From the IMG/VR virus record IMGVR_UViG_3300008219_003648, positions 1-52,636 of that record: a stretch of DNA of 52,636 nt, one strand, 5' to 3'. Numbering within the stretch: position 1 is the first letter of the stretch; the number at the start of each line of letters is the position of its first letter. Under the pieces are notes generated by a model. That model did not search any database. It saw only the letters and a program-made list of their open reading frames with translations, and was not told the DNA's origin. Below, one piece after another: positions 11,207-52,633 of the stretch. A program made the translations under genes and the position numbers. This DNA is from a virus.

Positions 11207-11280
11207 TTGTGTATATAGAGTGGGAACTGGACCTCTTTTTGGATAATAACGGGATATATCATATTTATTGTATCTTTATA

Positions 11281-11287: not shown

Positions 11288-11293
11288 TTTGTT

Positions 11294-11962: not shown

Positions 11963-11963
11963 T

Positions 11964-12011
11964 CCTATATTGCGTATATAGGGGGGAGGGGCTTCCTCCC
12001 CCCTTTTTTTT
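11964..12011 (+). terminator. Strong intrinsic terminator
   Basis: A 9-bp perfect G/C-rich stem, GGGGGGAGG (11981-11989) and CCTCCCCCC (11995-12003) with a 5-nt loop, is followed by eight T (12004-12011). A second small stem (CCTATAT 11964-11970 with ATATAGG 11976-11982) partly overlaps it. It ends the transcript of the virion-type protein. Confidence 0.92.
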
Positions 12012-12031
12012 ATCACACAAGGTAAGTTAAT

Positions 12032-12510: not shown

Positions 12511-12530
12511 GACGTAGGTTGGAATAATAA

Positions 12531-15859: not shown

Positions 15860-15871
15860 GAGTCAGATAAT

Positions 15872-16378: not shown

Positions 16379-17691
16379 CGATACCATTCACAACCCCAAA
16401 TGACAGGATATTTTATGCTTGCGTGGGCGTCCTCGTGGGTCCTGAATTAACAGGACGTAACGACATTGATCAAATGTCTGACCCACAAGACCATAAGTAT
16501 CTTACTGGCGTAACTTCAGTGGGTATTAATGGTGATATGCCCTCTACTTCACTGTTAGACATAGGACGCTTTCAGCGCAAATTTCACTACTATGGTCAAC
16601 AAACATTTGAAATCACTATTGAAAGAAACATTGATCACAATTCACAATTCTTTTATTATGTAGACCCATCTGATTATGGCACATACACTACCTCACATGT
16701 GTTACATGCTAATAACATGCATAGCCAAGGGTATGAAGATAATAACGGTAAATGTTTAAGAAGCTATGATATCACCATACTATATGGAGGTGACGACACT
16801 TCTCGTTTAGGAAGTGGCACCAATGTATATTCTATTACATATCAAAATTGTGTGGTAACTGGTATCAGTTATTCTATATCCGTAGGTGGTACATTAACTG
16901 AATCAATAACCTTAACCACTAAACATGTTAAAAATAACAGCGCCGCTGGTGATACTCTTATTGCAAGTTATGGCGATTTACCCGGAAGCGCTCAGTCGGG
17001 TGATATGGTTAAATGGGCAGATTTTCGTCCTATGCTAGAATCAACTACGGCGGCAGGTTTACGTGCATACTGGCCCGATGAAGTAATCTCATTATTTTAT
17101 CTAGCAAAGATCGAAGGGGGCTTATCTGTATTAGGTATTCAGTCTATTGATATAGATATGACCATAGAATATGCAGAGCCTACTGATGTAGGAATTTGGA
17201 GAGGCGGTGATAAATCTACTGGAATGTTTCAACCCAAGGAATTGAATAAGTGGAAAACAGTAGTTACACCCGTTCAGGTAACTGCTTCATTTACAGGAGT
17301 AACACGACAGCCCTTTTATGATATTGGATTATCGCGAGGTGGTACTGTAGAGGGTTCGGATCAGGCGTTGGCTAACGTAGACTTTACGTTTGGTCAACCA
17401 GATAGCACTCCTGACGATTTATATCAAAATCCCACATCAGCGCCCTATGATAAATACGCAAGAACTGATAGGATTATCAAACTTGCTGCCGAAAAATATC
17501 CCAGCGGCATTAAGACTTTCTTTGTTATAGACTTGGGACAAAAAAATTATTTAACAAGTATGAGTTTTTCAGGAGGAGATACGGGAGGTGGAAATCAAGA
17601 AGCCACTTTATCATACCAAAACGATTGGAGCGATATAGTATTAGCGAAGGACACAGCCATACAGACAACCACTAATAGCGGTCCTTACTAG
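16375..17691 (+). CDS. Probable tail (tube-like) structural protein
   Basis: A 438-residue beta-rich protein rich in Gly, Thr, Asp and Tyr. It contains VYSITYQNCVVTGISYSISV followed by GGTLTESITLTTK, a pattern common in phage tail-tube and related virion proteins, where a long beta sheet carries a self-assembly face. The N-terminus (RIFYACVGVLVGPELTGRND) and LTGVTSVGINGD also fit. No enzyme motif, signal peptide or membrane helix. It is translationally coupled to dUTPase (ATGA) and followed by phoH, an odd place for a structural gene, so it may belong to a dispersed late set. Precise role inferred, not proven. Confidence 0.55.
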   Translation: MTIPFTTPNDRIFYACVGVLVGPELTGRNDIDQMSDPQDHKYLTGVTSVGINGDMPSTSLLDIGRFQRKFHYYGQQTFEITIERNIDHNSQFFYYVDPSDYGTYTTSHVLHANNMHSQGYEDNNGKCLRSYDITILYGGDDTSRLGSGTNVYSITYQNCVVTGISYSISVGGTLTESITLTTKHVKNNSAAGDTLIASYGDLPGSAQSGDMVKWADFRPMLESTTAAGLRAYWPDEVISLFYLAKIEGGLSVLGIQSIDIDMTIEYAEPTDVGIWRGGDKSTGMFQPKELNKWKTVVTPVQVTASFTGVTRQPFYDIGLSRGGTVEGSDQALANVDFTFGQPDSTPDDLYQNPTSAPYDKYARTDRIIKLAAEKYPSGIKTFFVIDLGQKNYLTSMSFSGGDTGGGNQEATLSYQNDWSDIVLAKDTAIQTTTNSGPY

Positions 17692-30453: not shown

Positions 30454-32061
30454 ATGACATTGAATTGGATACCTATCAACTGTAAAACTCACTTCAGTTT
30501 GTTGAGGGGTTTTTGTAAACCGGCCGATCTTGCGGCTACATGCAAAAAGTACGGCTACCAAGCGTGTGCTATTGCAGATTTTAAAACTGTTTCTGGGGCG
30601 GTTGATTTTCATCAGGCGTGTCTCGATAATGACATCAAGCCTTTAATAGGATGTGACTTTGATGACTATGTTTTAATAGCAAAAAATAAAGATGGTTGGT
30701 TTGATTTAATTAAACTTGTTACCATACATCACCTATCTCCTGATATTGATACCTTAAAACAAATAGCCCTTAAGGGAAATTTACTTTGTGTCAGCGCGAA
30801 TGAAGTATATAAAAGTATCTTTGGAAAACACTTTGTTAAGTATGATTATAATAACTATAAAGTATATTATGTTAATCGCAAAGACGCAATTCCACATAGG
30901 GTTCTTCTGTGTTCTGGAATGAAAACCACACTCCCAAAAGTACAAACCAAAATTAAAAAAAACGAAGAGATTGATAATAAAGAATTTTTTATGTCTGATG
31001 ATTTCTATCTACCGACTCCCGAGGCATTTGACAACAATACCCAAGAAATTGAATTAGTGAATAAGATTGCTAATATGTGTGAAGATTATGAAATAACAAA
31101 AAAGCCGATGCTCCCACAGTTTAAATGTCCCGATAGTATGGATGAAAATGAATACTTAAAGAAGCTGTGTCGTCATGGATGGAGGCAAAAGCTAATGGCT
31201 TCTGGAAAAGTGGCAAACAAAGAGGACGAAGCGAATTATCTAGCTAGAGTAAAAACAGAATTTGAGGTCATCTTTAAGGCAGAATTATCTGGGTATTTTT
31301 TGATTGTTCAAGATATAGTTAATTATATTAAGGAACAAGGATGGCTTGCGGGACCGGGGCGCGGTTCAGCGGCTGGATGCCTCGTATCGTATCTTCTTGG
31401 TATTACTGAAGTTGACCCTATAGAATATGGGCTTATCTTTGAAAGATTTTACAACGAGGGACGCAATACTGAAGACTATGTTTCTTTGCCCGATATTGAT
31501 GTTGATGTACCCGCTGAACACAGGGACGAAGTAATTGACTATATTCGACAAAAATATAACCCTGAAAATGTATCACAGATGATCACGTTTGGTAGACTTC
31601 AAGGAAGGGCTGCCCTAAAAGAAGTATTACGAATTAATGAAGCTGTATCATTTGCAGAAATGAACGAAATTACTCAAAACATTCCTAACGAAGCTGATAT
31701 ATCAGATCAATTAGAAATAGCAGACGAAAAGTCAATTATTAGATGGGCTTTGATGAATGAATCTGAAAATCTAAAAAAATGGTGTAAAATAAATGAAGAT
31801 CAAACATTGGATGGCGATCTAGCTAGTATGTTTGAACAGGCTATTAACATAGAGGGAACTAATAAATCTCAGGGCAAGCATGCGGCAGGCGTTATAATAT
31901 CACAACACAAACTAAAGGATGTTTGTCCTATGGTTAAAGATAAAACTGGTAATTTAATTGCGGCTTTTGAAATGAATGATCTTGAAAGTCAAGGTCATGT
32001 CAAGTTTGATATTTTGGGTATTGATCTTTTAAGTAAGATCATGGATATAAAGCTTTCCTAA
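30454..32061 (+). CDS. dnaE: DNA polymerase III alpha subunit, N-terminal half (PHP and palm)
   Basis: The first half of a C-family replicative DNA polymerase. Residues 1-200 form a shortened PHP-like domain whose metal ligands look lost: NCKTHFSLLRG where active PHP domains have HxH, and ADF where they have DH. The palm follows: GPGRGSAAGCLVSYLLGIT, LPDIDVD with catalytic D347 and D349 (like E. coli D401/D403), KHAAGVIIS, and HVKFDILGIDLL with D519 (like D555). The protein stops 16 residues after that Asp, in the non-conserved linker before the fingers, so all catalytic Asp are here. The fingers and C-terminal regions are encoded at 32972-34513. No intein or intron signature is seen at the break. 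Confidence 0.9.
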   Translation: MTLNWIPINCKTHFSLLRGFCKPADLAATCKKYGYQACAIADFKTVSGAVDFHQACLDNDIKPLIGCDFDDYVLIAKNKDGWFDLIKLVTIHHLSPDIDTLKQIALKGNLLCVSANEVYKSIFGKHFVKYDYNNYKVYYVNRKDAIPHRVLLCSGMKTTLPKVQTKIKKNEEIDNKEFFMSDDFYLPTPEAFDNNTQEIELVNKIANMCEDYEITKKPMLPQFKCPDSMDENEYLKKLCRHGWRQKLMASGKVANKEDEANYLARVKTEFEVIFKAELSGYFLIVQDIVNYIKEQGWLAGPGRGSAAGCLVSYLLGITEVDPIEYGLIFERFYNEGRNTEDYVSLPDIDVDVPAEHRDEVIDYIRQKYNPENVSQMITFGRLQGRAALKEVLRINEAVSFAEMNEITQNIPNEADISDQLEIADEKSIIRWALMNESENLKKWCKINEDQTLDGDLASMFEQAINIEGTNKSQGKHAAGVIISQHKLKDVCPMVKDKTGNLIAAFEMNDLESQGHVKFDILGIDLLSKIMDIKLS

Positions 32062-32074
32062 ACAGGAGAAAAAA

Positions 32075-32296
32075 ATGGACGCTACAGCGGAAGATTATAA
32101 ATCAGTAATTTTTTCTGGGTGCTCAATAGAATATAAGGATATTTCTATTTGCGATTTGAGGCACCCTCTATCACAAAGTGGTCTTACTAGAGACATGGGA
32201 TATCAAGTCTGGTCTGATAAGCATCATTGTTACAATATTTACAAAAACATTGACGAGGCGGTTAAAAAGTTCATAGCTCTCAAGGGACATGTATAA
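32075..32296 (+). CDS. Small hypothetical protein between polymerase halves
   Basis: A 73-residue protein starting MDATAEDYKSVIFSGCSIEY, with a good AGGAG site 6 nt upstream. It contains DLRHPLSQSGLTRDMGYQVW and a final helix NIDEAVKKFIALKGH. No family recognised, and no intein, homing endonuclease or maturase motif is present. Its TAA shares a base with the ATG of the exonuclease (32296), so it is coupled to it. It may be a small partner of the split polymerase or simply cargo. Confidence 0.55.
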   Translation: MDATAEDYKSVIFSGCSIEYKDISICDLRHPLSQSGLTRDMGYQVWSDKHHCYNIYKNIDEAVKKFIALKGHV

Positions 32297-32979
32297 TGAA
32301 TTATAGAGATATTATTGTATTCGATTTTGAAACTGGTAGCGCTAATCCACATATAACACAGCCCACGCAAATTGCCGCAATAGCGATCCATGCTCGAAAA
32401 TTACAATTGCAACCGGGAGGAACATTTAATAGTGAAATGCGTCCTATTATAGATGATGATAAGGCTATTAAGGCGGGTGTAGCCCCCTTAGAAGATGAGG
32501 CCCTCAAGATCACCAGAAAAAATAGGACCGATTTAGCAAAAGCGCCATTACCAAAAACTGTATGGAAAAAATTTGCAAAATTTTGTGATAAGTATAATTT
32601 CAAAAAAACCAGTTATTATGCTCCTATCGCCGCAGGATTCAATATTAACCATTTTGATATGCCTATAGTTCAACGTATGTGTGAGCAATATGGACCATGG
32701 GATAATAAGCGAGGAGAACAAAAGATATTTAATCCTATTTTTACCATTGATGTTATGCAACATATATACTGTTGGTTTGAAAATAACCAAGATGTCAAGG
32801 GTTATAGTATGGATTATTTGAGGGATTATTTTGGTATCGGCAAGGACAATGCTCATGACGCTTTACAGGATGTAAAAGATACAGCTAATATTTTAATCAA
32901 ATTCATGCGACTTCAGAGAAGCTTATTGAAGAAAGTGAAGTTTGAAAAGTCTTTTGGAGATAAAGCTCTATATGTTTGA
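32296..32979 (+). CDS. DnaQ-like 3'-5' exonuclease (proofreading)
   Basis: A 227-residue DEDD-family exonuclease. ExoI is IVFDFETGS (D10, E12), ExoII is AAGFNINHFDMPIV (D121), and ExoIII is NAHDALQDVKDT (H187, D192), the DEDDh arrangement of the polymerase III epsilon subunit. All four acids and the His are present, so it should be active. It lies between the two halves of the DNA polymerase gene and overlaps the second half's ATG at 32972. This strongly suggests it is the proofreading partner of that polymerase. It lacks an obvious extra C-terminal domain. Confidence 0.88.
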   Translation: MNYRDIIVFDFETGSANPHITQPTQIAAIAIHARKLQLQPGGTFNSEMRPIIDDDKAIKAGVAPLEDEALKITRKNRTDLAKAPLPKTVWKKFAKFCDKYNFKKTSYYAPIAAGFNINHFDMPIVQRMCEQYGPWDNKRGEQKIFNPIFTIDVMQHIYCWFENNQDVKGYSMDYLRDYFGIGKDNAHDALQDVKDTANILIKFMRLQRSLLKKVKFEKSFGDKALYV

Positions 32980-34513
32980 TTTATCAAATTTGCATGATGA
33001 TCACGTCTGGGATTTGATATGTGAGGGTCACACCAAAGGTGTCTTTCAATTAGAATCTCAGCTAGGAAGATCATGGGCTAAAAAAGTGCGACCTAAAAAC
33101 ATCAATGAATTAGCGGCTCTTATTTCTCTAATTCGTCCCGGATGTTTGAAAGCATTTACGGACGGTAAATCTATGACTCAACATTATGTTGATCGTAAAG
33201 CTAACATCGATCCTGTAATTTATCCCGATGAATCTTTAGAACATATTCTTAAAGAAACCTATGGGGTACTTGTGTATCAGGAACAATCTATGATGATTGC
33301 TCAAGAGTTGGCTGGATTCACTCTGAAAGACGCAGATTCGCTCCGTAAGGCCATTGGAAAGAAAAAAGCTGGTTTGATGTCAGAAGTTAAAGAATCGTTT
33401 CTGAGGGGCGCTGAGAGTAAGGGGATAGTCACCAAGGAAATTGCTGAAGAAATATTTTCATGGATTGAAAAATCCAACAGATATGCCTTCAATAAATCCC
33501 ACGCTGTTAGTTACGCCATCAATGCTTATTGGAGTGCTTATTGTAAATTTCATAAAAGAGTACCATTTTACGTGTCTTACTTAAACCATTCTGATCGGAA
33601 ACCAGACCCCCAAAAAGAATTAAAAGAGTTGATTATGGACGCTAAGTTATCCGATATTGAAGTATATCCACCACGCTTACAGCATCTGCACACCAACTTT
33701 GTTGCAATAAATAATAAAATTTATTTTGGCTTGCGGCATATTAAACATATTGGTCAAAAGGAATGTGATAAAATCGAACAGTTATATAGAGATAACGATG
33801 TTTCTAATTATACGTGGATAGATGCATTAATAAATATTATATACAAAGGTAAAATTAACAAAAGGGCAGCAGTAGCCCTGATTTCAGTGGGTGCTTTTAG
33901 TGGCCCAAACAACCAACAACACAGAGAAAAAATGCTATATGAGTTTGATAGCTGGAAAGATCTTACTGCCAGAGAACAAACATATATCTCAGAAAATTAC
34001 AATAGTTCTGATAGTTTATCAGAATGTATAGGCAATATGATACAAGATACTAAAATCAATAGCCGTAGGCTAATTACCGTCCTAGATATTAAACAAATTC
34101 TAGATAATCCCCCTCATGAGGTACAGGATAACATTCCATCAATAGCTCAGCACGAGGAAAAATACATGGGATGCGCCCTTACATGTAGCAGAATGGATGC
34201 TATTAATACTAATTTTTCAACTTATATGTGTAAAGATGTGTCTCGTGGCACTATAAAAGGAAAGGTGAGTTTAATTGTTCAACTAAATTCTATTAGAACA
34301 TATAAAACTAAAAAGGGTAAAAATCCCGGCCAACTGATGGCATTTGTATCTGCGGAAGACGGAAGTGGCGTTTTAGACTCTATTACAGTATTTCCAGAAT
34401 GTTATCAACAATATCGTGACCTCCTAATTGAAGGAAATACAGTATTTATAAATGGAGAAATTTCCAAAAAGGACACTACTTCCGTTATAATAAATAAGGT
34501 GAGCCAAGTATGA
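32972..34513 (+). CDS. dnaE: DNA polymerase III alpha subunit, C-terminal half (fingers to OB fold)
   Basis: The second half of the split polymerase. From ATG 32972 (MFDLSNLHDDHVWDLICEG), which overlaps the exonuclease stop and has GGAG at 32956, it begins at the start of the fingers: TKGVFQLESQLGRSWAKKVR, LISLIRPGCL, VYQEQSMMIAQELAGFTLKD, ADSLRKAIGKKK, and NKSHAVSYAINAYWSAYCKF. A helix-hairpin region follows (NKRAAVALISVGAFSG), then an OB fold near the end (GKVSLIVQLNSIRTYKTKKG to VFINGEIS). Together with 30454-32061 the total is about 1050 residues, close to a whole DnaE. An upstream TTG at 32942 is a less likely start. Confidence 0.88.
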   Translation: MFDLSNLHDDHVWDLICEGHTKGVFQLESQLGRSWAKKVRPKNINELAALISLIRPGCLKAFTDGKSMTQHYVDRKANIDPVIYPDESLEHILKETYGVLVYQEQSMMIAQELAGFTLKDADSLRKAIGKKKAGLMSEVKESFLRGAESKGIVTKEIAEEIFSWIEKSNRYAFNKSHAVSYAINAYWSAYCKFHKRVPFYVSYLNHSDRKPDPQKELKELIMDAKLSDIEVYPPRLQHLHTNFVAINNKIYFGLRHIKHIGQKECDKIEQLYRDNDVSNYTWIDALINIIYKGKINKRAAVALISVGAFSGPNNQQHREKMLYEFDSWKDLTAREQTYISENYNSSDSLSECIGNMIQDTKINSRRLITVLDIKQILDNPPHEVQDNIPSIAQHEEKYMGCALTCSRMDAINTNFSTYMCKDVSRGTIKGKVSLIVQLNSIRTYKTKKGKNPGQLMAFVSAEDGSGVLDSITVFPECYQQYRDLLIEGNTVFINGEISKKDTTSVIINKVSQV

Positions 34514-41281: not shown

Positions 41282-42007
41282 ATGACTAGATTCACAAAAA
41301 AAATTACCGAACCTCCAGTTACTACTTTGCATAATAGTATAGCTATTATCATTTTGTCGGCTGGAGTTGGCAATAGAATTAAATCATACGAACCTAGAAG
41401 CTTACTAAAAATTGGACAAACCACTTTAATTGATCACCAGCTTTCTGTTTTAAATAACTCATTTCATTTTCCAGAAATAATCGGAGTGTTTGGTTATTTA
41501 GTCGAAAAAGTAGTTAAAAAGGTTCGAGGTAAAATACGCATAATAGAAAATCAAATATACCAAGAAACTAATACAGCAGAAAGCCTCAGACTAGCATTTA
41601 ACAGCACCACCAAAAATGATCTATTATTTTTTCATGGTGACCTATATTTTAACCTTGGTACATTACAAGGATTAGATTATAGTAAATCATTTTTATTGAT
41701 TGACAATAAACAGCAATTGCACGATAAAGAAGTGGGAGTCACGGTATGTGATAACAAAGCTACTATATTGTCATACGGCCTTCCTACTAAGTGGTGCCAA
41801 ATAGCATATATTACTGGTAAAGAATTTAAAATATTGAAACATATATTTCAAAAATTTAATAACAATCAAAAAAAAATGCTCGTTTTTGAAATTATAAACC
41901 AAATGATTGCAATGGGTGCGGTTTTTCATTGCTACGAACCTAAAAAGATGTCTATTGTGGAAATAGACTGCATAAAGGATATCAATTATGAAAATTTTAA
42001 TAAGTAG
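41282..42007 (+). CDS. Sugar-phosphate-type nucleotidyltransferase
   Basis: A 241-residue NTP transferase of the LicC/GlmU-like fold. IAIIILSAGVGNRIKSYEPR contains the LSAGxGxR nucleotide loop, LLKIGQTTLIDHQL the Lys-containing second part, and LLFFHGDLYF the acidic metal site. Total length is that of a bare nucleotidyltransferase without a hexapeptide domain. Product would be an NDP-activated sugar or CDP-choline-like unit. Its 3' end overlaps the next gene by 20 nt. Exact substrate not readable. Confidence 0.78.
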   Translation: MTRFTKKITEPPVTTLHNSIAIIILSAGVGNRIKSYEPRSLLKIGQTTLIDHQLSVLNNSFHFPEIIGVFGYLVEKVVKKVRGKIRIIENQIYQETNTAESLRLAFNSTTKNDLLFFHGDLYFNLGTLQGLDYSKSFLLIDNKQQLHDKEVGVTVCDNKATILSYGLPTKWCQIAYITGKEFKILKHIFQKFNNNQKKMLVFEIINQMIAMGAVFHCYEPKKMSIVEIDCIKDINYENFNK

Positions 42008-43028
42008 TGACGGAAAGCATGCGCACTACTATCAAAGAATGGCGTGGGCCACAGCGCTTACCAAGGCGGATTTTCAGGTAAGTATGTGGGATTGCAAAAG
42101 CGTTCCAGCTTTTGATGTATTTGATGCATTTGAGCCCGATATATTTTTAGGACAATCATATAATCTCGATACATCGTTATTAAAATGTATATACGAACGA
42201 CCTCATATAAAAGTAGGCTTACGAGTTGGTGACTGGGGTGATCATGAAGACATGGTAGATAAAACAAAATATAACATATTGTATTGCTCTCAAAAGGAAA
42301 AAGATGTTCTCAAAAAGCTCAAAGAAGAAACCGGTAAACCAGACTTTGTACATATTCATTATGACGAAAATGCTGTTAAGATCACCCATAACCATTTTGA
42401 ATCAATAGGAATAAAACCAATCTCATTAATGATGTGTGCTGACACCACAGCTTACAGTAGTGCTCAATATGACCCTAAGCTAGAATGTGATATAGGTTTT
42501 GTGGGAGGTTATTGGCCCTATAAAGGACTTGTTATAGACCAATATCTAACACCACTTTTAGATCCCCCTAATTATAAAGTTAAGATTTTTGGTAATCAAG
42601 TGTGGCCTGTTAATCAATACTGTGGCCTCTTATCAGACAACGATGTCAAAAACCTATTTGTATCTGCTAGAATATGTCCCAATCTCAGTGAGCCTCATGC
42701 CCAAGAATTTGGTATTGATGTAAATGAACGAATTTTTAAAATATTATATGCGGGAGGTTTTTGTATTTCAGATAAGGTGGATTCTTATAAAATGTTTGGA
42801 GATGGTTTGGTAATTGTTAACAGTCCAGAAGATTTCAGAGATAAAATAGATCACTATTTAGCCAATCCATCTGAACGATACAAAATTGCAGAAGTTGGCC
42901 AAAAACATGTTACAGAAAACCACACAGGATTTCACAGGAGCGCTCAAATCATGAATGCGTTTGATTTGACTAATTTATCAGAACGCATAATGAATCAATA
43001 TGAGGAAACAGTAAATGTCACAATCTAA
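41988..43028 (+). CDS. CgeB-like glycosyltransferase (GT-B)
   Basis: A 346-residue protein resembling the spore/phage CgeB-like glycosyltransferases. MKILISSDGKHAHYYQRMAW and FEPDIFLGQSYNL make the first domain; PKLECDIGFVGGYWPYKGLV, KIFGNQVWPVNQYCGLLSDN and FGIDVNERIFKILYAGGFCI the donor domain, the latter with a conserved Asn-Glu-Arg and GG turn. YKMFGDGLVIVNSPEDFRDK forms the tail region. It overlaps the nucleotidyltransferase by 20 nt and the epimerase by 14 nt. Confidence 0.78.
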   Translation: MKILISSDGKHAHYYQRMAWATALTKADFQVSMWDCKSVPAFDVFDAFEPDIFLGQSYNLDTSLLKCIYERPHIKVGLRVGDWGDHEDMVDKTKYNILYCSQKEKDVLKKLKEETGKPDFVHIHYDENAVKITHNHFESIGIKPISLMMCADTTAYSSAQYDPKLECDIGFVGGYWPYKGLVIDQYLTPLLDPPNYKVKIFGNQVWPVNQYCGLLSDNDVKNLFVSARICPNLSEPHAQEFGIDVNERIFKILYAGGFCISDKVDSYKMFGDGLVIVNSPEDFRDKIDHYLANPSERYKIAEVGQKHVTENHTGFHRSAQIMNAFDLTNLSERIMNQYEETVNVTI

Positions 43029-43977
43029 GGTTTTAGTTACAGGTGGAAAAGGTTTTTTAGGAAAATCTTTATGCGCGCTATTGAGACAAAATCAATCCTA
43101 TAATGTAATAGCCTTATCCGGTAAATCTCAGTGGGATCTAACTAACCAACGTTATGTCGATTATATGTTACAAGAGTTTACTCCTGATGTAGTGATACAC
43201 TTAGCCGCCAGAGTAGGAGGTATTGGAGCCAACAAAAAAAATCCCGGACTCTTTATGTATGAAAATTTGGCTATGGGTATGAATCTTATTGAGTCTTGTA
43301 GAAAATATGGCAAACTAAAAAAGTTTATTATGGTTGGTACCGTTTGCGCATATCCTAAGTTTACTGAGGTGCCTTTTAAGGAAACAGATATATGGAATGG
43401 TTATCCAGAAGAAACAAATGCTCCCTATGGAATAGCTAAAAAGGCTCTTATGGAGCTATTAATAGCCTATAACAAACAATACGATTTTCAGTGTACTAAC
43501 CTTATACCAGTAAATATGTATGGACCCAACGATAATTTTGATCCCAATATAAGTCATGTAATTCCAGCACTGATTTTAAAGTTTGCTAAAGCCATACAAA
43601 ACCACCATAAGCCAGTTGAAATATGGGGTACTGGAAAAGCTAGTCGTGAATTTTTGTATGTAGATGATTGTGCTCATGCCATATCTCAGGCAATTGAACT
43701 ACACACAACACCACAACCAATTAATGTGGGTACAGGCGATGAGGTTACCATTAGAACATTAGCACACTATATTAGTAGAATAATGGAATATAAAGGTGAT
43801 ATATATTTTAACTCTCAGCACCCAGACGGGCAGCCTCGAAGATGTTTAGATACGTCGGTTGCCAAAGAGACACTTAAATTTACAGCTTCTACAGGTTTAG
43901 AAACAGGATTACAAAACACCGTAACATGGTTCAATAGAAACAAGGATAGATTCGTTGATTACTTCGATCATATTTAG
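43015..43977 (+). CDS. GDP-L-fucose synthase-like NAD(P)-dependent epimerase
   Basis: A 320-residue short-chain dehydrogenase-type epimerase/reductase. VTGGKGFLGKS is the Rossmann GxxGxxG (residues 8-18), IHLAARVGGIGANKKNPGLF the fucose-synthase signature, GTVCAYPKFTEVPF contains the position of the catalytic Ser (here T109), and NAPYGIAKKALME the Y138-x3-K142 pair. EFLYVDDCAHAI is the C-terminal substrate part. It would make GDP-L-fucose or a similar 6-deoxysugar; no GDP-mannose dehydratase is seen in the window, so the precursor would come from elsewhere. Confidence 0.85.
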   Translation: MSQSKVLVTGGKGFLGKSLCALLRQNQSYNVIALSGKSQWDLTNQRYVDYMLQEFTPDVVIHLAARVGGIGANKKNPGLFMYENLAMGMNLIESCRKYGKLKKFIMVGTVCAYPKFTEVPFKETDIWNGYPEETNAPYGIAKKALMELLIAYNKQYDFQCTNLIPVNMYGPNDNFDPNISHVIPALILKFAKAIQNHHKPVEIWGTGKASREFLYVDDCAHAISQAIELHTTPQPINVGTGDEVTIRTLAHYISRIMEYKGDIYFNSQHPDGQPRRCLDTSVAKETLKFTASTGLETGLQNTVTWFNRNKDRFVDYFDHI

Positions 43978-44800
43978 TAAAGACCGTCCAGCTCAGCTGG
44001 ATTTATGTCTCAATAGTATCAAAAAGAATTTTGCAGATTCTAATAGAAATATTGTGTTATACAACAACACTAAAGATTTTATAGAAGCCCATAAGATATT
44101 ACAAAGTGAACATAAGGATGTAGACTTTTGGCCACAAGGGTTATCTTTATTTAAAGATCTGTATGCCACTATTGCAAGCTCTGATAATGATTATATTTGC
44201 TTTTTTACTGACGATGATATAGTATACCAACCAGTAAAAACAATTGACTATAATTCAATTCTACAAAATGACCACATCGCTTGCCTATCTCTAAGAATGG
44301 GTTTGAATATCTCTGAAAGATCTCACGATGGTGTTGTGGGACAAGACACACCAGCAGCATATCATGAATATGATGATATTATCTTATGGTCAAAAACAGC
44401 CAACACATACGGGTCCTATTGGTCATATTCTTTATCAGTAGATGGTCATATATTTAGAAAAAATGAAATATTAGACATGATAGATGAATTATGTTGCTTA
44501 GCAGATCGCTATCATTGGGATCAAACACCTAACGCACTAGAAGGGGCGCTTCAAAGGTTTTGGACAATCTCCCCGAACACGATGGCATCATTTAAGAATA
44601 GTGTGGTAGTCAATAGCCCGAATAACCGTGTACAGGAAAGTCATCTCAATAGATCAGGTGATAAGTATAGCGCCGATAGCAATTTCCTGCTGGGGAAGTA
44701 TTTGGCAGGACAAAGGATTAAGTTGGAATATTTAAATTTTGATAATATAAAATGTCCACATACAGAAATTGATCTCATGTTAGGTTTGTATGACAAATAA
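43955..44800 (+). CDS. GT2-like glycosyltransferase, TTG start
   Basis: A 281-residue GT-A-like protein. The N-terminus ITSIIFSKDRPAQLDLCLNS is the first strand of a GT2-like fold, and DNDYICFFTDDDIVYQPVKT contains a DDD metal site. HRDF/ED-like residues at the C-terminal side are not obvious. The start is TTG at 43955: AAGGA at 43942-43946 is 8 nt upstream, and no in-frame ATG would keep the first strand. This makes a 23-nt overlap with the epimerase gene. Donor unknown. Confidence 0.7.
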   Translation: MITSIIFSKDRPAQLDLCLNSIKKNFADSNRNIVLYNNTKDFIEAHKILQSEHKDVDFWPQGLSLFKDLYATIASSDNDYICFFTDDDIVYQPVKTIDYNSILQNDHIACLSLRMGLNISERSHDGVVGQDTPAAYHEYDDIILWSKTANTYGSYWSYSLSVDGHIFRKNEILDMIDELCCLADRYHWDQTPNALEGALQRFWTISPNTMASFKNSVVVNSPNNRVQESHLNRSGDKYSADSNFLLGKYLAGQRIKLEYLNFDNIKCPHTEIDLMLGLYDK

Positions 44801-45773
44801 TATTTGGCATTTCAGCACACTTAGTGACCATAATTATATTATTAATGGTTTGTGTCTATATGACTCATTAGTAGAAAAGTCCTCGCAAGACTTTATGCTG
44901 CATTATTTATGTATGGATCAATATACTTATGATACGTTAAACTCATTACAGCTGTCACACTTAAAAACATATACACTAGAAGATATTGCCACTGATCCCG
45001 AATTTGTAACCCTTAAAGAAAATAATGCTTGCCGCCCTATAGATAGGCATGCTGGTGTAGAAGGATCGGATCAATCAGATTTTCACTTTGCGCTTGCGTC
45101 CTTTTTTTCTTATTTCTTATTAAATCAACAAAATCTTCCCCATATATTATATATAGATTCAGATATAATATTCTATCATGACCCTAAAAGTATATTTACC
45201 TCAGTACAAAATAAGAGTATTGGGCTCATTGCTCACCGACATATGAAGATGGACAAAGCAAACCGAAATCCGGGATATTATAATGTAGGTGTTATTTATT
45301 TTCAAAACAATGAAGTGGGTAAAAACTGTCTAAAATTTTGGAGAGACTGCTGTATATATCCTAATAATCAATACTCTCAGATTTTTGGTGCTTGTGGTGA
45401 TCAAAAATACCTAGAGCTGTTTGAGGATTTTTTTGCTAGTGATCAAATCCACATCATGGATTTTGATATAGGGCACGGTGCCCCGTGGAATTTTACCATG
45501 TTTGAATTTCTAGATAATCACAGAATTGTGTGGCATGATCCTGAAGGTAATGTATTATTATGTGGAGAAAAACGAACTCAAGACTTGATTTTTAGTCACT
45601 TTAGTCACTTTGTACCCGATTACGATAATATGAAATTTCGATTCGATAGAGCTGGCGAATGGGGTCCACAGCTACCTCATCATCCGGGTGTCATGGATAT
45701 TTATATAAAATATTTTCAAGCACTCCTCCACACAAGAAAAAAATACTCTCTTACAAAAGGATTTTCTCTATGA
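44790..45773 (+). CDS. GT8/nucleotide-diphospho-sugar transferase-like glycosyltransferase
   Basis: A 327-residue GT-A enzyme. The metal motif DxD is in LPHILYIDSDIIFYHDP, followed by GYYNVGVIYFQNNEVG, FGACGDQKYLELFEDFFA and FDIGHGAPWNF, a layout shared by GT8 and related retaining glycosyltransferases. The final part has the tandem FSHFSHF from a 9-nt direct repeat (45592-45609). The next gene starts on its stop codon (ATGA at 45770). Acceptor unknown. Confidence 0.78.
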   Translation: MTNNIWHFSTLSDHNYIINGLCLYDSLVEKSSQDFMLHYLCMDQYTYDTLNSLQLSHLKTYTLEDIATDPEFVTLKENNACRPIDRHAGVEGSDQSDFHFALASFFSYFLLNQQNLPHILYIDSDIIFYHDPKSIFTSVQNKSIGLIAHRHMKMDKANRNPGYYNVGVIYFQNNEVGKNCLKFWRDCCIYPNNQYSQIFGACGDQKYLELFEDFFASDQIHIMDFDIGHGAPWNFTMFEFLDNHRIVWHDPEGNVLLCGEKRTQDLIFSHFSHFVPDYDNMKFRFDRAGEWGPQLPHHPGVMDIYIKYFQALLHTRKKYSLTKGFSL

Positions 45774-46564
45774 GATATGAGGCTATAGGAAGCGTACAAT
45801 GGGAAGCTAAAGATCTAATTAATTCTCTAGAAGATTTTTTGCAAATATATGCATATCGCCCCATTCGTGATAATGAGGGAGGAATGACTTCTTCTCACAT
45901 GTTTGCTACATGGTTTTTATGTAAACAACTTAATCCCCAATATATTATTGAAAGTGGTGTATGGAAAGGGCAAAGTTCTTGGTTATTGGAAACGGCGTGC
46001 CCAGATGCAAAAATTATATCCATTGATCCAGATCTTCAAATTCGACAATATATATCACCTCGCATACAATATGCAGTTACAGATTTTAATAATACGAATT
46101 GGGATTCAATAAACAAGAATGAGACACTATGTTTTTTCGATGATCATTATGGAGTCGATAGAGTAAAGCAAGCTGCGCAACACGGCTTTAAGCACATCTT
46201 GTATGAAGATAATTATCACGATGGCAGAGGTAATAGTTATCATCCCTCCTATGGGCATATTGCTAACATGGAACCTTTAACCGAAGGTGAGCGATCATAT
46301 TCCCCCAAAGCATCGTTTTTACTAAATACTAAAGATGCACAATGGCTACAAGATAACATAGAAATATATTATGAATTTCCCCCCATATATTCATCTGTAG
46401 ATTCTGATCGTGGTTATGGGTGGGCCAAAATAAGCAGAGAACAATATTTAGATATTACACCCCCTCCTTTATTTAGTACATATCATCCCCGGTTCGACAT
46501 TTATTATAAAGAAGCGCCAGATTATACATGGATAACTTATATTAAGTTAAAGGAGACTCTATGA
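45770..46564 (+). CDS. Class I SAM-dependent methyltransferase-like protein
   Basis: A 264-residue protein. Motif I is YIIESGVWKGQSSWLLETAC, with the following acid in IISIDPDLQI, and FFDDHYGVDRVKQAAQHGFK as motif IV-like acidic segment. This resembles the CmcI/rhamnosyl O-methyltransferase-like group. ATG 45770 overlaps the upstream stop and has AAGG about 10 nt before it; a longer frame from 45659 would run into the previous gene and is not used. It would methylate a sugar in the same glycan. Confidence 0.7.
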   Translation: MRYEAIGSVQWEAKDLINSLEDFLQIYAYRPIRDNEGGMTSSHMFATWFLCKQLNPQYIIESGVWKGQSSWLLETACPDAKIISIDPDLQIRQYISPRIQYAVTDFNNTNWDSINKNETLCFFDDHYGVDRVKQAAQHGFKHILYEDNYHDGRGNSYHPSYGHIANMEPLTEGERSYSPKASFLLNTKDAQWLQDNIEIYYEFPPIYSSVDSDRGYGWAKISREQYLDITPPPLFSTYHPRFDIYYKEAPDYTWITYIKLKETL

Positions 46565-47382
46565 ATCTTCCCGTTATTTTTATGCATACTGGATATCAGG
46601 ATTACTTGGCACAAAGTATACAGCAATCTCAACTATGGGACAACAAGGTTATATTGCTGGGAGATGACTCGAATAAAAAGGCGCATGTAGAGCATCATTT
46701 TATGTCTGATTATATGGATGGTACACAAAAGTTTTCTGATAATTACCAACATATGACATCTGGAAATTTTGAATTTGAGCTTTTTTGTTACAACAGATGG
46801 TTAATATTGTCTAATTTTGCCGAACGGCACTCAATAGAAAAATTGGTATATCTTGATTCAGATGTGGCTACGTTTTGTAATTTTTCCGACAAAGAAAATC
46901 TATTAGACGAAAAAAATATTGCCAGAGTATGTATGATGGACAATCAAGCAAATTATAGATGGTGTGCAGCAGCTTGTATTTCTTACTGGAGTCTGAGGGG
47001 GCTCAATACCTTTAAACAATTTCTTTTAGAAGCATACACCAAACACGTCGACAGGCTACAAGAGAAATGGCAATATCATCAAGACCATGATAAAGCTGGA
47101 GGGGTTTGCGATATGACCGCAACTTATTTATTTGTGAAAGATAATGAACTAGAACCCCTGAATAAGGTATTAGAAGATGATAGCACATTTGACCAAAGTA
47201 TGATGAGCGCTGACAATTATTTTGATAATGAATATGCTATGGACCCTCGGGGATTTAAAAAGCTAACATTCAGAGGCAATATACCGTATGCGTATAATAC
47301 TATTTTAAACAAGGAAATCAAAATGAATGCTATTCACACAAATAACAAACAGCTTTTAACAGCCCTAATAGGGAGAAATTGA
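46561..47382 (+). CDS. GT-A type glycosyltransferase
   Basis: A 273-residue protein. The clearest motif is EKLVYLDSDVATFCNF with the DxD metal site, preceded by SGNFEFELFCYNRWLILSNF. AAACISYWSLRGLNTF and KAGGVCDMTATYLFVKDN form the later part, and the end (MNAIHTNNKQLL) has a His in the place of the usual metal-binding histidine. Family resembles bacterial/viral GT-A proteins of uncertain number. Coupled to the previous gene by ATGA. Confidence 0.7.
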   Translation: MNLPVIFMHTGYQDYLAQSIQQSQLWDNKVILLGDDSNKKAHVEHHFMSDYMDGTQKFSDNYQHMTSGNFEFELFCYNRWLILSNFAERHSIEKLVYLDSDVATFCNFSDKENLLDEKNIARVCMMDNQANYRWCAAACISYWSLRGLNTFKQFLLEAYTKHVDRLQEKWQYHQDHDKAGGVCDMTATYLFVKDNELEPLNKVLEDDSTFDQSMMSADNYFDNEYAMDPRGFKKLTFRGNIPYAYNTILNKEIKMNAIHTNNKQLLTALIGRN

Positions 47383-47383
47383 T

Positions 47384-48274
47384 ATGAAAATAGCATTTGG
47401 TATAATAGTTTTCAATGGTAATTATGTGCTTCAAGAAACCATTGACTCTGTGTACCCCTTTGCTCACCAAATTTTAATTGCGGAGGGACCAGTTAAATTT
47501 TGGCAAGAACAAGGTTACTCATCATCTAGTGATGGCACTAATGAAATCATAGACAGCATATACGATCCAGATAATAAAATTCAAGTTATACATAGTCAGT
47601 ACGACGAAAAGGATGATCAATGTAATGCCTATATGCAATTCCTTAAGGAAGATAATGATTATATTTGGAATCTAGATTGTGACGAGGTATTCAAGCCAAG
47701 CGACATGGATACAGTTATAGGTTTATTAGAGCAAGAACAATATACTTCTGTGGGCTTCAAGAGTCTTACTTTTTATGGGGGTTTTGATAGATATCTTAGT
47801 GGATTTGAAGAAAGGGCAGAATTTTTAAGGGTTAGAAAGATATATCCGGGATCTTACTGGTCTACACATAGACCTCCTACAATTGCTCACCGTGCGCCAG
47901 ACCCATTAACTGGAGAACCATATCCAGAAAAACATCTAGATTTTAATGATCTAGCCGATAACTATGGAATAAGAATGTACCATTATTCCTATGTATTTCC
48001 TGATCAGGTATTTCAAAAGATAAAATATTACAAACAAAAAGTAAGTAAGGATAATTGTATCGACAATTATTTTGAGGAAATTTATTTGCCATGGATGCTC
48101 ACAGATGATAAAATGTTAGTAGAACAAAAATATCAGGGGGTTCATGAATTCAAGCCAGAGTGTCGTGGTGAATGTTATACGGCTCAATTTGAAGGGACTC
48201 ATCCATTTATTATAAACCATAGCCTACAGATGTTTCAAAAAAAGATTAACTCTCAACTGGAAAAATACACATGA
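47384..48274 (+). CDS. GT2 family glycosyltransferase
   Basis: A 296-residue GT-A enzyme. MKIAFGIIVFNGNYVLQETI, then the nucleotide-binding region QILIAEGPVKFW, DNDYIWNLDCDEVFKPSDM with the metal DxD-type acid, and GFKSLTFYGGFDRYLSGFEE. HRAPDPLTGEPYPEKHLDFN and MYHYSYVFPDQVFQKIKYY follow, resembling the lgt-type GT2 group. Complete-looking. The stop overlaps the next methyltransferase gene by 4 nt. Confidence 0.82.
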   Translation: MKIAFGIIVFNGNYVLQETIDSVYPFAHQILIAEGPVKFWQEQGYSSSSDGTNEIIDSIYDPDNKIQVIHSQYDEKDDQCNAYMQFLKEDNDYIWNLDCDEVFKPSDMDTVIGLLEQEQYTSVGFKSLTFYGGFDRYLSGFEERAEFLRVRKIYPGSYWSTHRPPTIAHRAPDPLTGEPYPEKHLDFNDLADNYGIRMYHYSYVFPDQVFQKIKYYKQKVSKDNCIDNYFEEIYLPWMLTDDKMLVEQKYQGVHEFKPECRGECYTAQFEGTHPFIINHSLQMFQKKINSQLEKYT

Positions 48275-48867
48275 ATCAACACATAGACTCTTGGAAAAAT
48301 TCGTCTAGTGCTTTTGAACAGCAATTAGAGAGAAATATACAAGAGCTTAATGGCCAATTTCCACCACACTGGATTCATTTCGTTGAGCATGTTCAAAATA
48401 CCCCTATCAACAGAATTGTGGATGTGGGGTGTGGTGCTGGGGCTTATTGCCATATCTCAACACAAATGGGAATCGAATATATGGGATATGATTATTCCCA
48501 GCACGCAATAGATTTGGCAACCAAAACATGGGGAGGTAATTTTATATGTAAAAATTATAAAGAGCTGACACCTCAAGATATACAGACAGGAGATATCATC
48601 GTGGCTAATGCTCTTTGTGAAGTACTACCGGATGGAGATAAATGCTTACGTCATTTACTGCAAATTGGGGCTAATAACTTATTGATACAAAGGGTGAGGT
48701 CTACAAATACACCCAGCTTTTCTAAAGAATATGAAGCTTACGGAATAATGACCTATGAATTTTATCACAACGCAAAGCAATTATCCTTGGATATAAACAA
48801 CAGTGGCTACAAGGTTACCTATCATAGATTATATGATGATGTGTTTGATTTGGAGATTGCTAAGTGA
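48271..48867 (+). CDS. Class I SAM-dependent methyltransferase
   Basis: A 198-residue methyltransferase. RIVDVGCGAGAYCHISTQMG is motif I with the GxGxG loop, followed by YMGYDYSQHAIDLATKTW with the acidic ribose-binding residue, and GDIIVANALCEVLPDGDKCL as motif IV. All core elements are present in a compact single domain. It lies directly before the sialyltransferase gene with a 4-nt overlap. The substrate is probably a sugar; a small-molecule target cannot be excluded. Confidence 0.82.
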   Translation: MNQHIDSWKNSSSAFEQQLERNIQELNGQFPPHWIHFVEHVQNTPINRIVDVGCGAGAYCHISTQMGIEYMGYDYSQHAIDLATKTWGGNFICKNYKELTPQDIQTGDIIVANALCEVLPDGDKCLRHLLQIGANNLLIQRVRSTNTPSFSKEYEAYGIMTYEFYHNAKQLSLDINNSGYKVTYHRLYDDVFDLEIAK

Positions 48868-49472
48868 ATGAATTAAAATTGATCAGCCCACAACTTATGG
48901 TAAATTCAAATATTGCTCTTGTGGCTTCTAGCTCTAATTTACTTGAAAGGGAATATGGTAAAACTATAGATAGCTTTGACGAAGTAGTTAGATTTAACAG
49001 AGCCCCCACTAAGGGGTATGAAAAGTACGTGGGGTCTAAAACTACTATTCGTATAGCTAATAATCATGTATTTGGAAATGTTCTTCATAGCGGATGGGAC
49101 ACAGACGCTCAGCCTACCTTTTTTATTAAAGAACAAAAAAATATCAACATTGTTCACTTAGGGCCAGAAGCAGTTCATTGGGGAGACAGAAGCCAACATA
49201 TAGATCCGTCTTCTCGGGCATTTTTAGTTGACTGTAATGCCATCCAGCGAGATATATTTTCCTTAACCAACGAAAGGCCAAGTGCTGGCTTTGGGTTTTT
49301 ATTCATATGTCTTATCAGTGATTTACATCCACACATCTTTGGATATGGGTTTGGGGAAGAGGGGTGTCCCCATTATTACGAAAAAAATTCTATTAGTAGC
49401 CATCAATTTGTTAAAGAAAGAGAAGTAATGAAAATTTGGATACAGAAAGGATATGTAACTGCGCATCTATGA
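48864..49472 (+). CDS. Sialyltransferase-like protein (GT29 sialylmotifs)
   Basis: A 202-residue protein with the motifs of eukaryote-type GT29 sialyltransferases. Sialylmotif L covers residues 16-62: NIALVASSSNLLE, GKTIDSFDEVVRFNRAPTKG, YVGSKTTIR. Sialylmotif S is RPSAGFGFLFICLISDLHPH then IFGYGF (138-163), and the VS motif HYYE follows at H170-E173. It would transfer a CMP-activated sialic acid to an acceptor. No membrane anchor or stem, unlike animal enzymes. The next two genes encode CMP-sialate synthetase and sialate synthase, which strongly supports the assignment. Confidence 0.83.
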   Translation: MNELKLISPQLMVNSNIALVASSSNLLEREYGKTIDSFDEVVRFNRAPTKGYEKYVGSKTTIRIANNHVFGNVLHSGWDTDAQPTFFIKEQKNINIVHLGPEAVHWGDRSQHIDPSSRAFLVDCNAIQRDIFSLTNERPSAGFGFLFICLISDLHPHIFGYGFGEEGCPHYYEKNSISSHQFVKEREVMKIWIQKGYVTAHL

Positions 49473-50107
49473 TATACTATATAATACCAGCGAGAAAAGG
49501 ATCTAAAGGGCTCCCTTTTAAAAACAGAAAACTGTTTCATTTTACCGCTGACACTATACCTAGCAATTTAAGTAGTGCCACTATAGTATCTACTGATGAT
49601 GATTATATTTCTAATTTGGCTTCAGGGTATGGATTTAAGTCACACAACAGAAGCCCACATGTGTCTATGGATACTACAAACACACGAGAGCTTTTAAGAG
49701 AGGTAGCTCGTGATCAGAATATGCACACAGATGATGAAATTGTAATGATGTATCTTACATATCCCCAAAGAACATTTTCAGATGTAGAAAAAATATACCA
49801 ATTTTACAAAAACAATAATGGAAACACACTGTTGTGTAAACAAGAGGCCACCACTCATCCATATATGTGTTATTATGAACTATCGAACCATAAAGGAAAA
49901 AGAGTTATTGATCACGATTTATACCGAAGGCAGGATTATCCTGATTGTTTTTTTGTTAGTTACTTTGTGGTCATTCTAAAGGTTGAATATTTACAAGTGG
50001 TCAATAAAAATCTACATCATCCACAAACATTGTTTTATCAACTAGACTACAATAGTATTGATATTGACACAATACAAGATCTTGATAACTTTGCTAAAAG
50101 GGATTAA
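49469..50107 (+). CDS. neuA: CMP-sialic acid synthetase-like cytidylyltransferase
   Basis: A 212-residue nucleotidyltransferase that would activate a nonulosonic (sialic-like) acid with CTP. IIPARKGSKGLPFKNRKLF is the N-terminal CTP loop (AxRxGSKG), ATIVSTDDDYISNLASGYGF the following region, and VMMYLTYPQRTFSDVEKIYQ and IDIDTIQDLDNF the later ones. ATG 49469 overlaps the sialyltransferase stop; the longer frame from 49436 has no better site. The usual NeuA position of RRQDxP is present (YRRQDYPDCFF). Neu5Ac, legionaminate or pseudaminate could be the substrate. Confidence 0.85.
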   Translation: MIYYIIPARKGSKGLPFKNRKLFHFTADTIPSNLSSATIVSTDDDYISNLASGYGFKSHNRSPHVSMDTTNTRELLREVARDQNMHTDDEIVMMYLTYPQRTFSDVEKIYQFYKNNNGNTLLCKQEATTHPYMCYYELSNHKGKRVIDHDLYRRQDYPDCFFVSYFVVILKVEYLQVVNKNLHHPQTLFYQLDYNSIDIDTIQDLDNFAKRD

Positions 50108-50108: not shown

Positions 50109-51581
50109 ATGTTTTATATACTCGAAATGGCTAATAATCATATGGGCAACGTAGCGCATGGAAAGTTGATTATAGATCAATTTGCTGATATATGTTCCGA
50201 GTATAATATTAATGCTTCGATTAAATTTCAATTTAGACAGCTAGATACCTTTATCCACAAGGATTTTATAGACTCAAATCTCAAATATGTAAAAAGGTTT
50301 AAAGAAACAAGGCTATCTAAAGAACAGTTTGGGGAACTAATACAATATACCCTGTCTAAGGGATTAAAAACTTGTTGCACCGCATTCGACAATGAGTCAA
50401 TAGCTTGGTTAAAGGAGTTAGATATATCTGTGATCAAAGTTGCAAGCTGTTCAGTAGATGATTGGCCGTTACTTAAACAAATTAGTGATATCAGTAAGAG
50501 GGTTATCATTTCAACAGCTGCTGCCGATATGGGCACTCTTCATAAAGTGTATGATTTATTCAAATCTAAATGTCGTGACTTTGCATTTATGCACTGCGTT
50601 GCAGACTATCCCACACCACATGATAGGTCAAATTTAGAAAGAATCAAAATACTACAGCAAGAATTTCCAGATATTGAGATAGGCTATTCTACACATGAGC
50701 CTCCTAATGCTAAGACTACAAGTATATATTCGATAGCCATGGGTTGTACTATTTTAGAAAAGCATATAGGCGTTCCAACAGACAATATAAGCCTCAATAC
50801 ATACTCATTGTCTCCCCTTCATTTTAAACTATTGCTTGACGAAATAGAATATTTTCAAAAATCTTATTCTGGACAATCGGAAATACAAAAGGAAGCCCTT
50901 AGGGCATTAAAAAGGGGGGTGTACTTTTCTAAAGATATGCTAAAAGGTGCCCAGATTTTAGAAGAAAATATTTATTTCTGTATGCCCGTACAGCAGCTAG
51001 AAAATGATTTTCATTTTGATGCCTCAGGTGTGGACGACATCATTGGAAAAATCATTAGACAAAACGTAACAAAAAATTCCACCGTCAAGCTGTCCGATAT
51101 ATCTAAGGACGCCGAAGAAGATTCTCTTGAATTAATAAGATCAAAAATTGCTACAATTCTACAAATGGCAAATATTCCATACGGCGACGAAGAGTTAGAG
51201 ATATCCTGTCATTTTGGATTGGATAATTTTGAACAAACAGGCTGTAGTATTATAAATAGGATTAATAGAGAGTATTGTAAAAAACTCATTATTGTTCTTC
51301 CCGGTCAATCCCACCCAACCCACAAACACATTCAAAAGGAAGAATGTTTTGAGCTTTTGTATGGAGACTGCGCAGTTCAACTAGGAGGTGAAACTATATC
51401 ATTACAAAAAGGTAAGCCCTTATTGGTCCCAAGGGGGATTGGTCATTCCTTCAAAAGTAATCATGGCTGTGTAGTAGAAGAGATTTCCACTACTCACATT
51501 AAGGGTGATTCTATATATGATGATCCCACCATCAATCAATTACCTTTAGATAAACGAAAGATATTTACGGTATTCAAATAA
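50109..51581 (+). CDS. neuB: Sialic acid synthase-like protein (NeuB domain, SAF, cupin fusion)
   Basis: A 490-residue three-part protein. Residues 1-250 are the NeuB barrel: ILEMANNHMGN, KFQFRQLDTF, TAFDNESIAWL, VIKVASCSVDDWPLL, IISTAAADMGTL, ADYPTP, IGYSTHEP and LEKHIG. It condenses phosphoenolpyruvate with an N-acyl hexosamine. Residues 265-330 are the SAF (antifreeze-like) domain, RALKRGVYFSKDMLKGA to VKLSDI. Residues 390-470 are a cupin with likely metal ligands H405, H407, E412 and H446 (HPTHKHIQKEECFELL, LVPRGIGHSF), an unusual addition. ATG 50109 is used. It shares a TAATG junction with the next gene. Which nonulosonic acid is made is not readable. Confidence 0.87.
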   Translation: MFYILEMANNHMGNVAHGKLIIDQFADICSEYNINASIKFQFRQLDTFIHKDFIDSNLKYVKRFKETRLSKEQFGELIQYTLSKGLKTCCTAFDNESIAWLKELDISVIKVASCSVDDWPLLKQISDISKRVIISTAAADMGTLHKVYDLFKSKCRDFAFMHCVADYPTPHDRSNLERIKILQQEFPDIEIGYSTHEPPNAKTTSIYSIAMGCTILEKHIGVPTDNISLNTYSLSPLHFKLLLDEIEYFQKSYSGQSEIQKEALRALKRGVYFSKDMLKGAQILEENIYFCMPVQQLENDFHFDASGVDDIIGKIIRQNVTKNSTVKLSDISKDAEEDSLELIRSKIATILQMANIPYGDEELEISCHFGLDNFEQTGCSIINRINREYCKKLIIVLPGQSHPTHKHIQKEECFELLYGDCAVQLGGETISLQKGKPLLVPRGIGHSFKSNHGCVVEEISTTHIKGDSIYDDPTINQLPLDKRKIFTVFK

Positions 51582-52633
51582 TGGCACATATATTTAAACA
51601 TCCATCAGACAACCAACACGGTATTGTAGTTATATCTCACCAAGAAGCCTATAGAGGTATAGATCAATACGGAGATATAATTGATCAAATCAAAAATAAA
51701 AGATATTTCATCGGAGTACATTATGGGGGTTTTTCTAATGGGGCACCTTATCCAGATTTCGCAGACTTCTTTATGGGAAGACGGTCTGTTACAGATATAT
51801 CTAACAGGTATCCTCACGCATTTGAAATACCAATAGTAAGCTCAAACTTTACTTCAACTGTATTTAAGAAGGACCCAGCAGTAAAAAAATACTGGGACAT
51901 TATTAACGTTTCAAGAGCGGGTAATGTAAAAAGGCTCGACATTTTTTTTGAGCAGATAAAGCACATATATAACCAAGGGCACCCATACAAGGTGCTCCTG
52001 ATTTGCCCCAAGAGGCATGAAGAGACCCCGCAAGATCATTTTATTAATATTGAAGATGTCTATTATAATATGTTTACAAAAGACGAAAGGCAGTTATTTA
52101 CATTAATGCGGTTGGACGAAAACCTTGAATTCAAGGGGCTAAGCAAAACACAGCTGTCTTATTTCTATCAAGCTTCTAAGGTGTCTACCTTGTTTTCCAT
52201 GTGTGAAGGGAGTCCCGGTGTTATTGGAGAGTCTTTACTGTGTCAAGTTCCTGTAGTGGTACATGGGTCACAAATGGGAAGCGGTAGGGATTTTTGCAAC
52301 GATCACAATTCAGTTTATTGGCATCAAGACCACTTAGCTCATCAGGCGCTCATTAATGCCGTTGAGAATTATGACAAATTTGTGTTCGATATGGGTGTTA
52401 TAAGTGATAACTATAGAGAAGATTATGGGCTTACAAAATTAAAGGATTATTTTTCCGCCCTGTATCAAAAACATGGGCAAACATTTGATGGAGAGCTAAT
52501 TAATACAGACGATCTTGTTAGTCGGCTTCCCTCTCATTATACAGATTTACCTTGGGTTGATACAAGATTATATAACGGGCACATGGTAACACGGGAACAG
52601 TTTGAAACATTTGCGCGAGAGGCAGTAGCATGA
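51581..52633 (+). CDS. GT-B type glycosyltransferase
   Basis: A 350-residue GT-B protein. EAYRGIDQYGDIIDQIKN and RYFIGVHYGGFSNGAPYPDF form the N-terminal domain, and STLFSMCEGSPGVIGESLLC followed by QVPVVVHGSQMGSGRDFC the donor domain with a Glu pair (CEG and GES). LTKLKDYFSALYQKHG lies near the C-terminal cap. It starts on the stop of the sialate synthase gene and its own stop overlaps the ATG of a further gene. Possible polymeriser or extender of the sialic-acid glycan. Confidence 0.75.
   Translation: MAHIFKHPSDNQHGIVVISHQEAYRGIDQYGDIIDQIKNKRYFIGVHYGGFSNGAPYPDFADFFMGRRSVTDISNRYPHAFEIPIVSSNFTSTVFKKDPAVKKYWDIINVSRAGNVKRLDIFFEQIKHIYNQGHPYKVLLICPKRHEETPQDHFINIEDVYYNMFTKDERQLFTLMRLDENLEFKGLSKTQLSYFYQASKVSTLFSMCEGSPGVIGESLLCQVPVVVHGSQMGSGRDFCNDHNSVYWHQDHLAHQALINAVENYDKFVFDMGVISDNYREDYGLTKLKDYFSALYQKHGQTFDGELINTDDLVSRLPSHYTDLPWVDTRLYNGHMVTREQFETFAREAVA

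Follow-up and report, generated by a model that had tools for sequence, protein, structure and literature searches.

Sialylation genes of viruses are usually associated with animal viruses. Among the viral protein models in BFVD, the GT29 fold is found in Chelonid alphaherpesvirus 5, Squirrelpox virus and Mimiviridae sp. ChoanoV1, and also in a protein of 492 aa from an uncultured Caudovirales phage (A0A6J5NLG3), which is already named GT29 in UniProt. In bacteria, the excerpt of PMC5811610 describes 23 GT29 sequences that carry the sialylmotifs L, S, III and VS (our motif names partly follow this source), are basal in the GT29 tree, and have neither a transmembrane domain nor the disulfide cysteines. 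In plants, the excerpt of PMC11288761 proposes RCKT1/MGP2 of Arabidopsis, a Golgi candidate acting on pectin, as a GT29 CMP-Kdo transferase, with no link to phages. A search of open-licence PubMed Central found no paper on phage-encoded GT29 operons or on exchange of NeuB and KdsA.

We analyzed a single stretch of viral DNA of 52,636 nucleotides (hereafter the window), which covers positions 1 to 52,636 of the IMG/VR record IMGVR_UViG_3300008219_003648. It encodes a bacterial-type GT29 protein, with the four motifs and without a transmembrane domain or the L/S disulfide, like the sequences in the excerpt of PMC5811610. The first-pass annotation of the window had placed most bacterial sialyltransferases in families without these motifs, and had suggested that the protein might be a minimal soluble GT29 core informative on the origin of the family. 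A view that bacterial GT29 enzymes are not known is not supported, given these 23 sequences. The core is an already known type of enzyme; since the short soluble form has been published (PMC5811610, excerpt), a single further protein adds little on the origin of GT29. Unlike the bacterial genes, the window gene lies on a phage and is tied to a conserved GT8-GT2-methyltransferase run. What is new here is that two phages with 89% identical GT29 proteins have different donor genes after the GT29 stop codon, NeuB in one and KdsA in the other.

A short soluble GT29 protein

The GT29 gene (48864..49472, plus strand; 202 aa, GTG start) was assigned by a Pfam match and the translation of the ORF; the coordinates, length and peptides quoted in the first-pass annotation were all accurate. 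The likeness of this ORF to GT29 is far above chance, with PF00777 scoring 67.7 bits where the cut-off is 23 (E = 1.5e-18), and phmmer with the protein alone against PDB sequences recovering ST3Gal1 (1.6e-10), ST6Gal1 (3.1e-8) and ST8SiaIII (3.2e-4). The ORF is a GT29 family protein. A profile of 48 phage and bacterial rows matched animal GT29 with much lower E-values (ST3Gal1 1e-30, ST6Gal1 7e-26, ST8SiaIII 6e-22, ST6GalNAc2 9.5e-20), and no other family gave a better match. NCBIfam and PHROGs returned nothing for the GT29 protein.

The first 4 bases of the gene are shared with the methyltransferase gene upstream, whose stop they overlap. Since an in-frame TAA (48861) immediately precedes the GTG, no N-terminal stem is hidden upstream of the ORF. 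The highest Kyte-Doolittle mean over 19 residues is only 1.44, and neither the sequence nor the hydrophobicity scan revealed an N-terminal transmembrane anchor or stem such as characterizes the animal subtypes. The protein is soluble, stem-free and shorter than the animal enzymes, as had been proposed. We saw no frameshift or truncation, given that relatives from the same clade are 202-221 aa and align over their full length.

All four sialylmotifs occur in the correct order. The L region covers residues 16-63 (48909..49052, plus strand) and the S region residues 138-160 (49275..49343, plus strand), both placed by profile and alignment. Motif III is HYYE (residues 170-173; 49371..49382, plus strand), with H170 in 40 of the 48 aligned rows, and motif VS, of the form HxxxxE, is HQFVKE (residues 180-185; 49401..49418, plus strand), with H180 in 47 rows. 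E185 and G142 are invariant in all 48 phage and bacterial rows. By analogy with the animal enzymes, H170 and H180 are candidate catalytic residues. The first reading of the motifs was right on L, S and the order, but HYYE, which it had taken for VS, is motif III. The cysteine positions of the animal enzymes correspond to Ile17 in L and Asp153 in S, the latter resting partly on a hand alignment to ST3Gal1 because the automatic S column is gappy. In this alignment the window protein lacks the L/S disulfide cysteines of the animal subtypes; an L-motif cysteine occurs in 7/48 rows, and the L/S pair in none. A divergent phage subgroup (L006, L007, L009, L010 and L011) keeps the HxxxxE of VS and lacks motif III, and several of its contigs have two or three GT29 copies.

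An AlphaFold model of the window protein, built from the 48 phage and bacterial rows, had a pLDDT of 93.5 and a pTM of 0.91. In a Foldseek search of the PDB with this model, GT29 sialyltransferases took all of ranks 1-30, and GT42 CstI and CstII came next. With VIA-align, ranks 1-14 were GT29 chains (Z 17.8 to 14.9), including ST6GalNAc2 (Z 17.8, 194 residues, rmsd 2.8) and ST3Gal1 (Z 17.4, 177 residues, rmsd 2.6). The protein is predicted to have the GT29 fold (a modified GT-A fold), and the structural comparison that the first-pass annotation had proposed came out in favour of its assignment. Since the 177 residues align over residues 86-341 of ST3Gal1 (2wnb), the animal enzyme has extra segments. 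The window protein resembles animal GT29 (ST3Gal, ST6Gal, ST6GalNAc, ST8Sia) in family, motifs and predicted fold, but differs in its 202 aa, its lack of a stem and its lack of the L/S cysteine pair. GT42 CstI and CstII have a distantly related fold and are clearly weaker matches (Z about 10); a GT42 identity was rejected (best profile E-value 6.5e-5 versus 1e-30 for GT29, and Z 10.4 versus 17.8).

The gene neighbourhood in the window

The operon context, which the first-pass annotation did not include, says most about function, with a NeuA-like and a NeuB/cupin gene directly downstream of GT29. Reading along the plus strand, on which all these genes lie, the order is GT8 (44790..45773), an ORF of 301 aa, a putative glycosyltransferase without Pfam match (46561..47382; homologues in L005 and L042), GT2 (47384..48274), a SAM methyltransferase (48271..48867), GT29, a NeuA/PseF-like CMP-ulosonate cytidylyltransferase (49469..50107), a fusion of NeuB synthase, SAF-like and cupin domains (50109..51581), and a GT4-type glycosyltransferase (51581..52633; Glyco_trans_1_4 9.5e-7). 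The same gene run includes a MobA-like nucleotidyltransferase (41282..42007) and an NAD-dependent sugar epimerase/dehydratase (43015..43977). GT8 and GT2 are conserved upstream of phage GT29s, and the methyltransferase lies directly upstream of GT29 also in L034, L035, L038 and L040. From methyltransferase/GT29 to NeuB/GT4, the four junctions overlap or abut by 4, 4, 1 and 1 bases: the likely ATG of the NeuA-like gene (49469) falls in a 4-base overlap with the GT29 stop, that of NeuB (50109) is one base past the NeuA-like stop, and the GT4 start overlaps the NeuB stop by one base.

The cytidylyltransferase matched CTP_transf_3 (8.4e-8) and PseF (2.4e-13), the latter far under its NCBIfam equivalog cut-off (50 vs 206). 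The synthase matched NeuB (1.4e-41), Cupin_2 (5.7e-8) and, sub-threshold, SAF (0.018), and is likewise far under the equivalog cut-offs for NeuB_NnaB (131 vs 400) and PseI (129 vs 340). Of the window proteins that were scanned, none was recognized as making a ManNAc-type precursor. The C-terminal fusions of NeuB differ among phages, with a cupin in the window (50109-51581) and L005, and a xylose-isomerase-like TIM barrel in L035 (10630-12483).

Relatives in phages and bacteria

The window protein used as a single sequence found nothing in a scan of viral contigs, but family alignments did: three alignment scans yielded 65 viral-contig loci (L003-L015 and L030-L081), the best being 59% and 55% identical. 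Bacterial relatives came from one scan of genome contigs, with 14 loci spread over many phyla, the best in an Opitutales MAG (36%); plasmid records gave no match. The sole match among named phage records was LR756508.1 (L002), an uncultured phage of 484 kb with four tandem GT29 genes around NeuB within 5 kb (9213-14034) and an additional GT29 about 12 kb upstream. Some phage GT29s, of about 360-470 aa, are longer than the core of ~200 aa (L050, L059, L064, L068-L071, L074, L076 and L079).

In a quick maximum-likelihood tree, the window protein falls in a clade of 15 rows with support 99, of which 14 come from phages and one from a bacterium. Only this clade and its inner forks were used, from a tree in which 20 forks stay open and several branches are long. 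Rows from phages and from bacteria are intermingled, and the starred branches force at least 2 changes. The window GT29 belongs to a widespread phage family, and is not a lone relic. The GT29-NeuA-NeuB order of the window recurs in L033 and L044, and L031 has GT29-NeuB-NeuA; in L005, GT29 is followed by a NeuB/cupin gene 51% identical to that of the window. The GT29-NeuA-NeuB set also occurs on three Neomarinimicrobiota contigs, where the GT29 proteins are 210 aa and near NeuA- and NeuB-like genes. A NeuB relative was also found in MH319754.1 (marine virus AG-345-L05, from a single seawater cell; 87479-88135), in which the search found no GT29.

Linkage of GT29 to donor genes

We examined 51 GT29 records: the window, LR756508.1 and 49 other viral contigs. 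NeuB was present in 16, which span 12 to 484 kb, and in all 16 the nearest GT29 was 123-5,134 bases away. As a control we selected phage contigs by the presence of the neighbouring GT2 gene; of the 50 obtained, 9 had a GT29 over the cut-off and 2 more had one below it. NeuB occurred in 5 of these 9 versus 1 of the remaining 41 (Fisher p = 3e-4, a test that overstates independence because the records share ancestry), at 115-1,918 bases from GT29 in the five cases. A CTP_transf_3 gene was found in 23 of the 24 GT29 records with NeuB or KdsA versus 3 of the 27 others. Common descent of the records makes all these counts look stronger than they are. The 27 records with neither synthase are in many cases fragments; their phages might draw on CMP-sugars of the host or on a different donor.

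A KdsA-type synthase was present in 8 of the 51 records, none of which had NeuB. This mutual exclusion (16 and 8 of 51, 0 shared) is weakly significant, at p = 0.037 with shared ancestry ignored. Four of the eight KdsA genes lie within ~1.5 kb of a GT29, and the other four about 9 to 20 kb away. The KdsA of L003, L039 and L040 pass the NCBIfam cut-off for Kdo8P synthase, NF003543 (243.9 vs 242 in L040), and that of L034 falls short by 0.3 bit. Among the 13 phage records of the window clade, NeuB occurs in 5, KdsA in 6, and neither in 2 (contigs of 37 and 32 kb); donor-gene labels on the tree require at least 5 changes.

L035 and L040 share closely related GT29 (89% identity), GT2 (97%), methyltransferase (89%) and cytidylyltransferase (86%) genes. 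Their DNA is similar (83%) from 5066 to 10631, the break falling two bases short of the point where the GT29 stop codon ends; the similarity resumes past the donor genes. Beyond GT29, L035 carries the NeuB-TIM-barrel fusion, a DHDPS-like and an APH-like gene, and L040 a DHDPS-like gene (about 21% identical to that of L035) and KdsA. Between the donor cassette and the cytidylyltransferase, L035 also has two sulfotransferase-like ORFs (15823-17636). The two GT29 proteins differ at 23 alignment columns, none of which, judged by eye, cleanly separates NeuB-linked from KdsA-linked GT29s. Either the GT29 and cytidylyltransferase of these phages tolerate both donors, or a small number of changes shifts their specificity, or the role of one of the synthases lies elsewhere.

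These observations are compatible with a tentative model, which we consider possible but would not favour, in which phage GT29 is a general CMP-ulosonate transferase with exchangeable donor cassettes, NeuB (C9) and KdsA (C8, Kdo), whose exchange would give the same glycan a different acidic cap. If so, a single GT29 scaffold would take both donors or switch between them with few substitutions. Because a nearly identical GT29 pair adjoins different donor genes, donor specificity is directly testable with few substitutions. How widely GT29 has spread among phages, and its coupling to sugar-making genes that seem to be exchangeable, look worth experiment, the donor exchange above all. The case points to ulosonic caps as a trait altered in phage evolution.

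Proposed function

We consider it likely that the window GT29 is a cytoplasmic bacterial-type transferase, most probably capping a phage-specified glycan with an ulosonic acid, an acidic 2-keto-3-deoxy sugar. The analysis shows the family, motifs, predicted fold, operon layout and recurrent NeuB linkage; catalysis, donor identity, direction of transfer and acceptor, which may be a virion protein, the host envelope or other, are inferred. The NeuB/cupin protein would form a nonulosonic acid by condensing PEP with a sugar of the hexosamine type, and the NeuA-like protein would convert this acid with CTP to the CMP-sugar. GT29, acting as an inverting transferase, would then add the CMP-activated nonulosonic acid to the terminus of a chain that could be built by the products of the upstream GT8, GT2 and methyltransferase genes and of GT4. 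Phage genomes appear to combine, in a single operon, the genes to synthesize an acidic sugar donor, to activate it and to transfer it. Being small and soluble, phage GT29s should express easily, and could yield compact sialyl- or Kdo-transferases.

Instead of a C9 sugar resembling sialic acid, the donor could supply Kdo or some other C8 ulosonate, as proposed for plant RCKT1, which shares with the KdsA-bearing phages both the GT29 family and a possible Kdo donor (PMC11288761, excerpt). The eight KdsA records without NeuB, three of them passing NF003543, agree with such a role; the window, however, has NeuB and no KdsA, and only half of the KdsA genes are close to a GT29, so that we regard a C8 donor as unlikely here. 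A protein that keeps the GT29 fold but has a different donor or function, such as a non-ulosonate transferase using host nucleotide sugars, would fit the 27 of 51 records with neither synthase and the missing motif III of the divergent subgroup, but all four motifs are present in the window protein, whose gene is coupled directly to NeuA- and NeuB-like genes, and we judge this reading quite improbable. That the gene is a recent capture from a host, decaying and functionless in the phage, is hardly credible: a related gene does occur in the same tree clade on an Opitutales MAG contig (L016), but the window frame is intact, the motifs are kept, the gene order is conserved, and 13 phage records fall in the one clade of 15 rows.

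Other genes of the window

The scanned subset of window ORFs included no recognizable capsid or terminase. Host contamination of the record is unlikely, since the window carries UvsX-like, DnaB-like, DNA polymerase and ribonucleotide reductase phage families. The phage DNA polymerase (30454-34513) is in two ORFs, which correspond to parts 245-609 and 624-1069 of the phrog_405 profile, with an ORF for an RNase_T-type exonuclease (32296-32979) between them. The window also encodes an acyl-CoA dehydrogenase-like protein (82-1245) and a radical SAM/SPASM protein (3091-4212).
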